Shown here piece by piece: positions 4,394 to 9,288 of a DNA stretch of 10,680 nt. The DNA lies in the NCBI GenBank assembly GCA_947565265.1, contig CANOFK010000019.1, positions 1-10,680 of the forward strand, read 5' to 3'. Made by a program: the position numbers and the translations under genes. The notes under the pieces are model-generated. The model did not search any database and had not been told where the DNA came from. It saw nothing but the letters and a program-made list of their open reading frames with translations. Position 1 is the first letter of the stretch. Each line of letters opens with the position of its first letter. This stretch comes from an uncultured Clostridia bacterium (lineage in GTDB: Bacteria > Bacillota > Clostridia > Oscillospirales > Acutalibacteraceae).

Positions 4394-4560
4394 CCGCCCT
4401 TTTTAAAGGGCGGTGGGTCCAGGGCAAAGCCCTGGCGGGTCTGGGCGGAGCCCAGCGGGCCTGGGCAGAGCCCAGCGGGTCTGGGCGGAGCCCAGCGGGC
4501 CTGGGCAGAGCCCAGCGGGTTTGGGCAGAGCCCAGCGGGTTTGGGCGGGGCCCAGTGGAG
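4394..4560 (+). repeat. Tandem array of palindromic 20-bp units upstream of the ABC genes
   Basis: Six head-to-tail 20-bp units begin at 4441, 4461, 4481, 4501, 4521 and 4541. Each has the form YTGGGC-RGR-GCCCAG plus a CGGG-type spacer, so each is a 6-bp hairpin. Units 1-2 and 3-4 are identical as 40-bp pairs, which points to recent duplication. A related 7-bp hairpin (CCAGGGC-AAA-GCCCTGG, 4419-4435) precedes them, and before that another (CCGCCCTTT with AAAGGGCGG, 4394-4413). The unit length is not a multiple of three and open frames run through on both strands, so the apparent repetitive peptides are not credible proteins. The array ends 24 bp before the ATPase start codon. It could form a chain of RNA hairpins in the leader, or be a selfish or recombination-prone repeat. 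Confidence 0.9.
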
Positions 4561-7085: not shown

Positions 7086-7394
7086 ATGCCGGAAGATAAG
7101 ACCCTTACCTGCCGTTCCTGTGGCCGGGCGTTCCTGTTTACCGCTGCCGAGCAGGCTTTTTACGCCGAAAAGGGCCTGGCCAGCCAGCCCAGGCGCTGCA
7201 AAGAGTGCCGCCGCGCCCAGCAGGCCCGCCGGGCCAGGCAGACCCTGTACAAAGGCATATGCGCTGCCTGCGGCCGGGAGGCCCAGGTGCCCTTTTGCCC
7301 GGAGGAAACCCGGCTGATCTACTGCCGCGACTGCTACAGCCAGATGCAGGCAGAGCGCCGGGCCAACCGGAGCCACCGGGGCCGCAGGCCCTGA
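7086..7394 (+). CDS. Small double zinc-ribbon protein (CxxC-x17-CxxC)
   Basis: The protein has 102 residues. The frame is open far upstream, but ATG 7086 has a perfect AAGGAGG at 7071-7077 and begins the conserved domain. The first ribbon uses C9/C12 (TCRSCGRAF) and C38/C41 (RCKECR), with the family phrase FTAAEQAFYAEKGL between them. The second uses C59/C62 and C80/C83 with exactly 17 residues between the CxxC pairs (GREAQVPFCPEETRLIY), matching the CxxC-x17-CxxC motif seen in many clostridial proteins. The ends are rich in Arg, suggesting nucleic-acid contact. Molecular function is not established. It lies 50 bp behind the sigma gene with a shared terminator, so co-expression is likely. Confidence 0.9.
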   Translation: MPEDKTLTCRSCGRAFLFTAAEQAFYAEKGLASQPRRCKECRRAQQARRARQTLYKGICAACGREAQVPFCPEETRLIYCRDCYSQMQAERRANRSHRGRRP

Positions 7395-7402
7395 ACCATA
7401 GC

Positions 7403-7450
7403 AAAAGGCAAGGCCCCCATCCCGCCGGGGGCCTTGCCTTTTATTTTTTT
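7403..7450 (+). terminator. Strong Rho-independent terminator between convergent operons
   Basis: A perfect 16-bp stem pairs 7403-7418 (AAAAGGCAAGGCCCCC) with 7427-7442 around an 8-base loop, followed by a T-rich tail to 7450. It ends the sigma/zinc-ribbon unit. On the other strand the stem also ends in four T, so it may serve the convergent anti-sigma operon too. Confidence 0.95.
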
Positions 7451-7461
7451 GCCTGCCAACC

Positions 7462-8016
7462 TTACCCCTGCCCGCCGTGATGCCTGTGCCGGTGCCCGGC
7501 GCCGTGGCCCTGGGCCCGGCCGGCATGGCAGCTTACATTCTGGTGGTTTTTGGCGCAGGTTTCCAGATTGGCCAGCATTTCGCAGCTTTTGCGCTCGTCG
7601 TCGCACAGTACCTCGATAAATACTTCCCGGCCCTGTTGCACATAGCCCTGTACCTGGTCGCTGGCCAGCAGCTTTTCCACGGCCTGGGTGTAGCCCATAA
7701 AGCGCAAGTCAACGGTTTCGGCCAGCATCTCGCCCTCCGGGTTGTTCCCCTTGGCCCCTACCACCATGCCAAAGCAGTTGACCTGTAGGTCCAGCTCCGG
7801 GTTTACCCGTATGCCGATGGCGGAAACCGGGGTGAAATACAGCCAGCCCTCTACGGCCAGCACCAGAAACAACGCGGCGGCAGCCAGGGCCCAGCGCACC
7901 GGGTGGCGGGCTTTGGGACGGCCGGCCGCCCGGGCCAGCACATAGGCCTGGGTACGGGCCTTCAGGGCCTCGCTGGCCTGCACCCGGTCCAGGGCGGTTT
8001 TCAGTTGGTTATCCAA
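7462..8016 (-). CDS. RsgI-like membrane anti-sigma factor with His-rich C-terminal tail
   Basis: The protein has 184 residues. The start is a TTG at 8016 with GGAGG (8026-8030 on the other strand) 9 bases upstream, lying inside the end of the sigma gene; the genes overlap by 16 bases, so translation is coupled. Residues 1-40 are charged and probably cytoplasmic, and should bind the sigma factor. A single membrane helix spans about 42-60. The outer part begins VSAIGIRVNPELDLQVNCFG, the pattern of the RsgI extracytoplasmic domain, including the Asn-Pro pair (N72-P73) where RsgI proteins are reported to cleave themselves. No carbohydrate-binding or other sensor domain follows. Instead, after C138, C145, C154 and C163, the tail is His/Gly-rich (HGAGHRHRHHGG). 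The likely role is to hold the ECF sigma factor and release it on an outside signal, perhaps a metal. Function is inferred. Confidence 0.85.
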   Translation of the reverse strand: MDNQLKTALDRVQASEALKARTQAYVLARAAGRPKARHPVRWALAAAALFLVLAVEGWLYFTPVSAIGIRVNPELDLQVNCFGMVVGAKGNNPEGEMLAETVDLRFMGYTQAVEKLLASDQVQGYVQQGREVFIEVLCDDERKSCEMLANLETCAKNHQNVSCHAGRAQGHGAGHRHRHHGGQG

Positions 8017-8492
8017 AAGCTGTCACCTCCCAGCCGTTCTGCCAGCAGCTTGCGGGCCCTGGTCAGCAGCGTATAGACGGTATTGGGGTTCTTATGTAAA
8101 ATCCGCCCGATTTCCGGCGCGGTGTAGCCCTCATAATAGTGCAGGTATACCACGTTGCGGTATTTCTCCGGCAAAGAGAGCACCGCCTCCAGCACCTCCC
8201 GCTCCTGGGTGCCGGTTGCGGCAGGCAGGTCTGCCAGCGCCTCCAGAGGCACGGTGCGGCTGCGGAATATGGTCTTTATCAGGTCTTTGCAGGCGTTTAT
8301 GGTCACCCGGATCATCCATGCCCGCTCATGCTCCGGGTTTTCAAACACAGCAGAGCTAAGGACATACTTCAAAAATACGGTCTGAAATATGTCCTCCGAG
8401 TCAGCCTCGTTTTTAAGGTAGATCAAACAGATCCGCCGCACCAGGTCGGCGTACTGTTCGATGGCCCGGCTGGCCTCCTGCTCGCTGCGCAT
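8001..8492 (-). CDS. ECF-type RNA polymerase sigma factor
   Basis: The protein has 163 residues, normal for an ECF factor with only regions 2 and 4. Region 2 spans about 10-75, with NEADSEDIFQTVFLKYV and the -10-reading segment HERAWMIRVTINACKDLI. Region 4 spans about 101-152, with LPEKYRNVVYLHYYEGYTAPEIG and the recognition helix NPNTVYTLLTRARKLL. ATG 8492 lies 5 bases after the stop of the secreted Cys-rich gene, and no good ribosome site precedes it. It therefore probably depends on ribosomes finishing the upstream gene. The downstream anti-sigma gene overlaps its end. Sigma/anti-sigma pairs of this layout normally regulate their own operon, which would include the secreted protein. Confidence 0.93.
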   Translation of the reverse strand: MRSEQEASRAIEQYADLVRRICLIYLKNEADSEDIFQTVFLKYVLSSAVFENPEHERAWMIRVTINACKDLIKTIFRSRTVPLEALADLPAATGTQEREVLEAVLSLPEKYRNVVYLHYYEGYTAPEIGRILHKNPNTVYTLLTRARKLLAERLGGDSFWITN

Positions 8493-8497
8493 GGCTT

Positions 8498-9055
8498 TTA
8501 GCAGTGCTGCCCGCCGTGATGGCCTCCGCCATGATGGCCGCCGTTGCCGCCCCAGTTGCCGCCCCAGTTGCCGTTGCCATTACCGTTGCCGTTGCCGTTC
8601 CAGGTCCCGCAACTGCCGTGGGCGCCGCAGTGTTGCAGGCCGCAGGTGGGGCAGACGGCGCTGTTCAGGCAGCCGTTGCACGTGCCGTCCACGCAATTCC
8701 CGTTGCCGCAGTTGCCGTGGGAGCCGCAGTGCTGCAAGCCGCAGGTGGGGCATACGGCGCTACCCACGCAGGTGGGGCAGTCCGGGTAGGCATAGTTGCC
8801 GTCCTGGCAGTTGCCGTGGGCCTCGCAGTGGCGCAGGCCGCAGGTGCCGCAGAACACGCTGCCCCGGCAGTCGGCGCAACTGCTGTCTGCGCAGTGGGAA
8901 TAGCGGTGGCCGGCCCCACCCTGGTGGATGGTTTGCAGCCCGGTGCAAATGCCCCGGCTGACGCTGTGGTGCCCGTTTTGATGGTAGGCCATGGCCCCGG
9001 TGGGCGCCAGTACCAGCAAAAGCATGGCCGCCAAAAGTGCCAATGTCTTTTTCAT
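8498..9055 (-). CDS. Secreted Cys/His-rich protein with three 33-residue repeats
   Basis: The protein has 185 residues. ATG at 9055 is chosen because GGAGGG (9063-9068) is 7 bases upstream and a classic signal peptide begins there (MKKTLALLAAMLLLVLAPTG, cleavage probably after AMA at 23). The mature part has 22 cysteines. Three units starting at C60, C93 and C126 are exactly 33 residues apart, each with the spacing CxxCx5CxxCx4Cx5C, each containing the C-G-L-x-H-C block and a second His (H80, H113, H146). The C-terminus is an Asn-Gly dipeptide run, then Gly/Trp/Asn-rich, then HHGGGHHGGQHC. No known enzyme motif is seen and I do not recognise the family. Metal binding, or an extracellular disulfide-rich mini-domain array, are the two obvious possibilities. 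It is the first gene of the sigma/anti-sigma operon. Confidence 0.85.
   Translation of the reverse strand: MKKTLALLAAMLLLVLAPTGAMAYHQNGHHSVSRGICTGLQTIHQGGAGHRYSHCADSSCADCRGSVFCGTCGLRHCEAHGNCQDGNYAYPDCPTCVGSAVCPTCGLQHCGSHGNCGNGNCVDGTCNGCLNSAVCPTCGLQHCGAHGSCGTWNGNGNGNGNGNWGGNWGGNGGHHGGGHHGGQHC
8543..8600 (-). repeat. Hexanucleotide-type repeat encoding the Asn-Gly tail
   Basis: GTTGCC (plus strand) recurs six or seven times with slight variants inside the 3' part of the secreted Cys-rich gene, encoding the Asn-Gly and Trp-Gly-Gly-Asn run. Because the period is six bases, slippage would change tail length without shifting the frame. Confidence 0.7.
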
Positions 9056-9203
9056 GATAAATCCCTCCAAATAATGTTGGCCGTTCCCGGTCTTACTTAC
9101 AATACGAACCCCCACCCCAAAACCATTCATGGGCAAAAAATTTTTTTGAAAACTTTTCCGGCCCTTCCAATCCGGCCCTCCGCCGGGTGGTTGGCCGGAC
9201 GGG

Positions 9204-9288
9204 CGCTTAACCCTCGCTAAGCGTTTATCCCTCGCTAAACCAGAGTTCAGCTCTCGCTAAACCAGAGTTCAGCTCTCGCTGAACTCTG
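9204..9288. repeat. Short tandem repeats at the 3' end of prfC
   Basis: The octamer CTCGCTAA occurs at 9213, 9231 and 9253, and a variant CTCGCTGA at 9275. Two consecutive 22-bp units (about 9230-9273) are nearly identical, and the unit matches the last codons of prfC. The final copy forms an 11-bp hairpin, CAGAGTTCAGC (9263-9273) with GCTGAACTCTG (9278-9288), spanning the stop codon. A smaller stem, CGCTTA (9204-9209) with TAAGCG (9218-9223), lies beyond. No T-run follows on the minus strand, so it is not a standard intrinsic terminator. Confidence 0.75.

Follow-up and report, generated by a model that had tools for sequence, protein, structure and literature searches.

Does a short operon that encodes a secreted cysteine-rich protein, an ECF sigma factor and a membrane-bound anti-sigma factor constitute a signalling module in its own right, and if so what might it sense? 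The locus that raises these questions lies in the window, by which we mean the whole stretch of 10,680 nucleotides that was analysed. The host assembly of 1.46 Mb is 60% complete and carries a single copy of the secreted gene. Three genes occupy the minus strand in the order secreted protein, ECF sigma factor, RsgI-like anti-sigma factor, and their coordinates were checked in the window (Table 1). A preliminary description of this DNA had reported a 5-base gap between the first and second genes and a 16-base overlap between the second and third; these are confirmed at bases 8497-8493 and 8016-8001, respectively. It had also ascribed His/Gly-rich tails to both outer proteins and cysteines to the external part of the anti-sigma factor. 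Both hold, with C-terminal ends of GGHHGGGHHGGQHC in the secreted protein and GHGAGHRHRHHGGQG in the anti-sigma factor, the latter having five cysteines and seven histidines after residue 60. The arrangement is beyond chance, because the same gene order recurs in other genomes.

Table 1 Features of the operon and its immediate surroundings in the window
Feature	Position	Strand	Remarks
Secreted Cys/His repeat protein	8498..9055	-	ATG start, 185 aa, 22 Cys, 17 His
ECF sigma factor	8001..8492	-	163 aa; Sigma70_r2 and Sigma70_r4_2 above cut-off
RsgI-like SEAL-domain anti-sigma factor	7462..8016	-	TTG start, 184 aa; RsgI_M E 6.3e-12; AlphaFold model
Operon promoter, ECF type	9102..9127	-	AATGGTTT (-35), 13-base spacer, CGTAT (-10); TG precedes
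Signal peptide MKKTLALLAAMLLLVLAPTGAMA	8987..9055	-	From sequence
Tandem 99-base repeat region of secreted protein	8606..8853	-	C-x2-C-x5-C-x2-CG-x2-HC at residues 60, 93, 126
Gly/Asn/His tail of secreted protein, residues 154-185	8501..8596	-	From sequence; His co-varies with anti-sigma tail His
Shine-Dalgarno of anti-sigma gene, GGAGGTGA	8023..8030	-	Inside sigma gene, codons of LGGD
Predicted transmembrane helix of anti-sigma, residues 39-60	7837..7902	-	Hydrophobic stretch and helix in AlphaFold model
SEAL (RsgI periplasmic) domain, residues 63-167	7516..7830	-	
Predicted scissile Asn72-Pro73 of anti-sigma	7798..7803	-	NP in 70/74 aligned sequences
Gly/His tail of anti-sigma, residues 168-184	7465..7515	-	Low confidence in model
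Terminator-like hairpin	7403..7442	.	16-base-pair stem; separates operon from convergent gene at 7086-7394

Other features of the window were observed in passing. The convergent gene on the plus strand (7086-7394), across the shared hairpin, encodes a small CxxC-rich protein that looks zinc-ribbon-like by eye. A 20-base unit is repeated 6.7 times with 87% matches at 4422-4555, just upstream of a coding region that, again by eye, resembles an ABC-transporter ATPase, and a 22-base unit repeated 2.5 times (9231-9284) spans the stop codon of a release factor 3 gene.

The sigma factor is readily assigned. It is short, with regions 2 and 4 only, both matched in Pfam above the cut-off (PF04542, E 4.5e-10 and PF08281, E 5.4e-16), and scores 72.1 bits against the NCBIfam sigma70-ECF model TIGR02937, for which the cut-off is 42.9. 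The C-terminal part is Sigma70_r4_2 and not a SigI domain in place of sigma4. Identity with 16 relatives from the genus ranges from 61 to 74%.

The anti-sigma factor matches RsgI_M (PF23750) with 46.7 bits against a cut-off of 25.3, and the SEAL domain in a PDB profile search with E 1.4e-16. The AlphaFold model, mean pLDDT 88.4, displays the SEAL fold; confidence drops to about 50 in the last two blocks, which represent the tail. Asn72 and Pro73 are placed in the loop between strands 65-70 and 74-79, and the matched chains of five solved RsgI entries start at the position aligned with this Asn-Pro site. The dipeptide is present at the predicted site in 70 of 74 aligned anti-sigma factors, Butyricicoccus pullicaecorum (L068) being among the four that lack it. 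The anti-sigma factor probably cuts itself here. For RsgI, PMC12203970 describes autocleavage, then the action of RseP and ClpXP. Of the 74 sequences, 66 possess a GKY helical extension, which is absent from that of the window. The suggestion that a sensor domain had been exchanged for a short Cys/His tail in this particular locus is not borne out: low-complexity tails of Gly, His, Asn and Gln are common among the anti-sigma factors of the family, so there is no replacement particular to the window.

For the secreted protein there is no Pfam match at E ≤ 1, and a PDB profile search gave nothing convincing. The AlphaFold model has a mean pLDDT of 45 and thus predicts no fold. Matches to Lactococcin-972 and CpxP were rejected, being far below the cut-off and restricted to the first 38-47 residues. 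The sequence does contain three C-x2-C-x5-C-x2-CG-x2-HC repeats spaced 33 residues apart, for which a comparison with zinc ribbons and metallothioneins produced neither a profile match nor a confident model, and it contains no DxDxDG loop. Alignment with 13 relatives reveals a shared signal peptide and HHGGGHH tail, and a signal-like N-terminus, judged by a lenient rule, is present in all 92 of the family's secreted proteins examined.

Loops are the hallmark of most relatives. DxDxDGxC-like loops occur in 86 of 98 upstream frames picked by script, a set that includes two unrelated genes (L052, L105). The search pattern fixed Gly at position 6 and Cys at position 8, and required Asp, Asn, Ser or Glu at positions 1, 3 and 5. 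Within these limits Asp occupies position 1 in all 246 loops of the 86 proteins and position 5 in 227, whilst position 3 is Asp in 160 and Asn in 85; position 9, which was left free, is Asp in 243. Position 12 is mostly Gly (157 of 246) as opposed to the acidic residue of a canonical EF-hand. Other types of secreted protein also exist, five with a DGTG-type motif, one His-rich (L142) and one with CxxC (L143). When seven secreted relatives were scanned, no EF-hand, Excalibur or zinc-ribbon match exceeded the Pfam cut-off. EF-hand_5 and Excalibur appeared below it in L046 only, and L106 was the sole member of the seven with matches above it, to the adenylate-kinase lid and an ephrin-receptor-like repeat. 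In L055, L064, L098 and L085 the secreted protein has an additional insertion or an altered C-terminus, resembling surface-protein domains. Apart from the self-match, a search of the proteins of 148 genomes with the secreted protein of the window returned a single weak match, located at the G010 operon. On this evidence it is a derived outlier of its family, because it has Cys/His repeats without the loop and so few matches. The cysteine-rich character that the preliminary description took as the essence of the system is real in the window but atypical, most relatives carrying DxDxDGxCD loops, and by this comparison is the least typical part of the family.

How widely is the arrangement distributed? 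In the genus, a sigma factor at least 62% identical is found in 18 of 29 genomes (that of the window included). In every one of the 18 the secreted gene precedes sigma and an RsgI-like anti-sigma gene follows sigma. Amongst these, a contig end truncates L010, the anti-sigma frame of L012 is broken, L018 lacks the Asn, and L016 is fused: one 399-residue frame at 1501-2700 covers sigma and anti-sigma, representing a fusion or an assembly error. An exact DNA pattern for DGxGxCDN gave 24 matches in 12 of the 29 genomes, all at this operon. A scan of named genomes yielded at least 472 confirmed stretches, of which the best 80 were kept; their record labels include Oscillospiraceae, Lachnospiraceae and others. 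In a sample of the class at least 15 of 391 genomes reached 190 bits or more, a lower bound because only nine candidates were scored in genomes with more. The distribution is therefore patchy, as the genus and class fractions indicate, with one remnant (L126 in G049): around position 1500 on the minus strand a promoter stands directly before an anti-sigma-like C-terminal tail, with no secreted gene or sigma gene between. Cultured strains with the module include Faecalimonas umbilicata DSM 103426 (L103) and B. pullicaecorum DSM 23266.

A total of 111 loci (18 + 80 + 13) were analysed, 102 of them distinct. The secreted gene lies upstream of sigma in 99 of the 102, comprising 94 parsed by script (86 with loops, five with DGTG, plus L002, L142 and L143) together with L005, L010, L067 (partly masked), L103 and L108. 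Parsed distances between the two genes run from a 22-base overlap to a gap of 296 bases, and GGAGG is found near the sigma stop codon in 83 of the 102 loci, the window's own copy falling just outside the scanned stretch. The exceptions to the gene order are L039, with only 232 bases upstream, and L052 and L105, where no secreted gene lies beside sigma. L145, which scores 190.9 bits and has both promoter and repeats, was omitted from the counts because its sigma start was unreadable by the script. More remote ECF relatives (L146-L160, 180 bits or less) were left out because the promoter, SEAL motif and repeats were all absent by pattern from the fetched stretch. On the minus strand of L020 (G044) an ECF sigma factor 53% identical to that of the window is followed by a SEAL-like anti-sigma factor, and the fetched stretch revealed no DxDGxCD repeat gene, the one such case observed outside the group; the pairing of an ECF sigma factor with a SEAL-like anti-sigma factor is thus neither unique to the module nor new in itself.

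A promoter with at most three mismatches and a 13-base spacer is present within 1.5 kb upstream of sigma in 91 of the 102 distinct loci, a median of 49.5 bases (range 6-348) from the start codon picked by script. Spacers of 12-14 bases were allowed and every good match has 13; one match with a 12-base spacer in L106 was discarded as chance, the real site being further upstream. A strict form of the pattern matches once in the genome of the window. With a long pattern 30 genomes were searched, 28 chosen for a recognisable operon promoter, so that at least one match is expected in each of those, plus the two exceptions with an unlinked secreted gene. The operon or the unlinked gene was matched in all 30 with 0-3 mismatches. 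Twenty-five genomes have no further match and five share six more, at 2-3 mismatches, as against three matches for the reversed control. The number of mismatches does not set these six apart, since the operon sites in G000, G532, G535, G536 and G546 themselves have 2-3. The short strict pattern, applied to 60 relatives, matched the operon in six genomes and gave nine other matches, namely the L126 remnant and eight elsewhere, as against seven for the control; at one of the eight (L122, G007) an open frame begins 35 bases downstream. Close matches are thus nearly confined to the module, although weaker targets are possible.

A larger regulon was considered and rejected. The short pattern with up to three mismatches gave 331 matches against 139 for the reversed control in 29 genomes of the genus. 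The 18 genomes that carry the module (239 to 101) and the 11 that lack it (92 to 38) give the same ratio of 2.4, so the surplus reflects the pattern itself rather than this sigma factor. Among the matches listed, those with at most one mismatch are all at the operon. The description of the locus as self-contained is upheld in that the long-pattern promoter occurs once in 25 of the 30 genomes and, for flanking open frames of at least 110 residues, no gene family is common to more than 7 of the 102 loci.

The two loci with an unlinked secreted gene are instructive. A repeat-motif search located the gene elsewhere in both genomes (L192, L194), in each case preceded by TGAATGGATT-N13-CGTATT. This promoter is the sole match to the long pattern in either genome, so the sigma genes of L052 and L105 have no such site. 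The preliminary description had counted separation of the secreted gene from the sigma pair against its proposal. Separation does occur, in two of 102 loci, but the shared promoter on the unlinked copies indicates that the promoter preserves the tie to the secreted gene after the genes part.

Do the tails of the two outer proteins go together, as the preliminary description asked? Their histidine contents co-vary. Counts in the last 25 residues give rho 0.68 (p 2e-13) for 89 of the 102 loci. The other 13 (L005, L010, L012, L016, L039, L049, L052, L067, L103, L105, L106, L108, L144) were truncated, masked, fused, frame-broken, unlinked or not parsed, technical reasons for exclusion chosen before the test was run. 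Other tail lengths give rho of 0.66-0.71, and 44 thinned loci, using the last 40 residues, 0.64. With independent contrasts r is 0.56, a value that none of 1000 permutations reached, and other single residues attain at most 0.28 (Asn). Raw correlations are likewise weaker for Asn (0.34), Arg/Lys (0.33) and Gly (0.26). Whole tail composition yields a Mantel r of 0.11 (p 0.018) over 25 residues and 0.05 (p 0.21) over 40. In the window's genus alone, with 14 usable loci, significance is not reached (rho 0.49, p 0.07). There is no significant correlation with histidine in sigma or in the N-terminal part of the anti-sigma factor, or with GC content. Anti-sigma tail histidine does correlate with histidine in the body of the secreted protein (rho 0.50, contrasts 0.49), and the effect is therefore not one of the tail alone.

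Gene order, SEAL fold, Asn-Pro site, promoter and histidine covariation stand by sequence. From these we infer that the sigma factor reads this promoter, that the anti-sigma factor undergoes cleavage and site-2 proteolysis, and also what the cue may be and what the secreted protein may do. The reading we favour, and consider reasonably probable, is a sigma switch with one output, in which a self-cut SEAL anti-sigma factor senses through its tail, and the secreted effector and that tail share an extracellular partner. The anti-sigma factor would tether the ECF sigma factor at the membrane, its SEAL domain having cut itself between Asn72 and Pro73 with the pieces remaining associated. On meeting the cue at the disordered outer tail the SEAL fragment would dissociate and a site-2 protease would cut the remaining stub, freeing the sigma factor to read essentially one promoter, AATGGWTT-N13-CGTAT. 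This would drive the secreted repeat protein together with, in the majority of genomes, sigma and anti-sigma, giving self-amplification. The secreted and anti-sigma tails would bind the same partner, for which a divalent metal or, where the wall is damaged, a wall polymer is the likeliest candidate, and we propose that the effector is in this way directed to wherever the sensor has been set off. Sequence gives good support to the regulatory half but not to the cue; we lean towards a metal, to which the histidine covariation and the metal-like motifs point.

Several alternatives are less likely. In the first, which is possible but unlikely, the module serves metal-ion homeostasis, the secreted protein acting as an extracellular buffer for a metal that the anti-sigma His tail also senses, calcium in most species and zinc, copper or nickel in that of the window. 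The acid-rich loops with Asp at positions 1, 5 and 9 are consistent with this, as are the three Cys/His repeats of the window's secreted protein, the covariation of tail histidine, and a correlation of cysteine density in the secreted protein with anti-sigma tail histidine (rho 0.53, contrasts 0.50). However, Gly prevails at loop position 12, the seven relatives scanned gave no EF-hand, Excalibur or zinc-ribbon match above the Pfam cut-off, no neighbouring gene family recurs in more than 7 of 102 loci, and the cysteine contents of the two tails do not co-vary.

In the second, likewise possible but unlikely, the disordered anti-sigma tail probes the cell wall for gaps that the secreted low-complexity protein fills or marks, histidine and cysteine being of little importance. 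The SEAL fold, the low-confidence tail of the anti-sigma model and a mean net charge of about +2 on the secreted tails would suit such a role. So would the wall-defect model for Bacillus subtilis RsgI, which detects wall defects according to PMC10202637 and PMC13059805, in the latter through its disordered region. The prominence of histidine in the covariation and the conserved loops would nevertheless be left unexplained.

That the secreted protein is a ligand or feedback inhibitor of the anti-sigma factor, with the tails binding directly or through a bridging metal, is doubtful. The gene order, the co-varying tail histidine and the presence of HHGGQ in both tails of the window argue in its favour, but these two tails also share a 15-base DNA word, so that part of their likeness may stem from local recombination. 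A bolder version, in which His/Cys-rich tails bind each other via a shared extracellular metal and so put force on the self-cut SEAL domain or take it off, seems to us improbable; were it true, this would be a mechanical switch, gated by metal, that makes nothing but the partner it binds, its tail chemistry being adjusted from species to species and the window's lineage having moved from calcium loops to Cys/His sites. Finally, it is likewise improbable that the likeness of the tails is a by-product of low-complexity DNA in both genes under the same local bias or gene conversion: both tails are Gly-rich on average and the longest shared DNA word is slightly longer within loci than in His-matched cross pairs (mean 8.2 against 7.4 bases), but the correlation is unchanged when loci with 12 or more bases in common between the tails are removed (rho 0.67, n=83), there is no link with GC content, the contrasts are strong for histidine only, and both tails carry histidine in both genomes with unlinked genes (in the last 25 residues of secreted and anti-sigma protein, two and four for L052, four and six for L105, against medians of one and three), although two cases prove little.

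The favoured reading, a switch with one output, has consequences of some interest. In many gut bacteria a whole alternative sigma factor seems to be maintained for essentially one secreted protein, and a sigma factor dedicated to seemingly one promoter and one secreted protein would be an extreme case of signalling and an unusually simple surface-sensing circuit. The module would also make the cue sensed by SEAL-type anti-sigma factors outside the membrane directly testable, because histidine is a single measurable trait in which sensor and effector evolve together. The work behind the wall-defect model (Brunet 2022) reportedly also found a disordered region on a wall synthase that acts at the same sites; no closer parallel to matching tails on a sensor and an effector is known to us.

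How does the module compare with known systems? No description of the three genes together was found by title and start of abstract in the open-licence literature, and the module appears to join RsgI/SEAL signalling to an ECF sigma factor and a single secreted effector. The loops of most relatives have a DxDxDGxxD geometry that resembles those of EF-hands, thrombospondin type 3 repeats and dockerins; they differ from such calcium-loop proteins in having Cys at position 8 and mostly Gly at position 12, and the window's copy has lost them. As regards the SigI/RsgI systems of B. subtilis and Clostridium thermocellum, SigI lacks sigma4 according to PMC6056542, whereas the sigma factor of the window is a normal ECF type with region 4. 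The outer part of RsgI in C. thermocellum is a carbohydrate-binding or enzymatic domain (PMC12203970), as opposed to the short low-complexity tail seen here. The first gene of the present module, unlike SigI/RsgI, encodes a secreted repeat protein and the regulon resembles one promoter. ECF pairs such as SigV/RsiV and SigW/RsiW consist of a sigma factor encoded together with a membrane anti-sigma factor. The module is like them in possessing regions 2 and 4, an adjacent membrane anti-sigma factor and a -35/-10 promoter before the operon, and differs in that the anti-sigma factor carries a SEAL domain with a predicted cleavage site and that most genomes searched have a single promoter.
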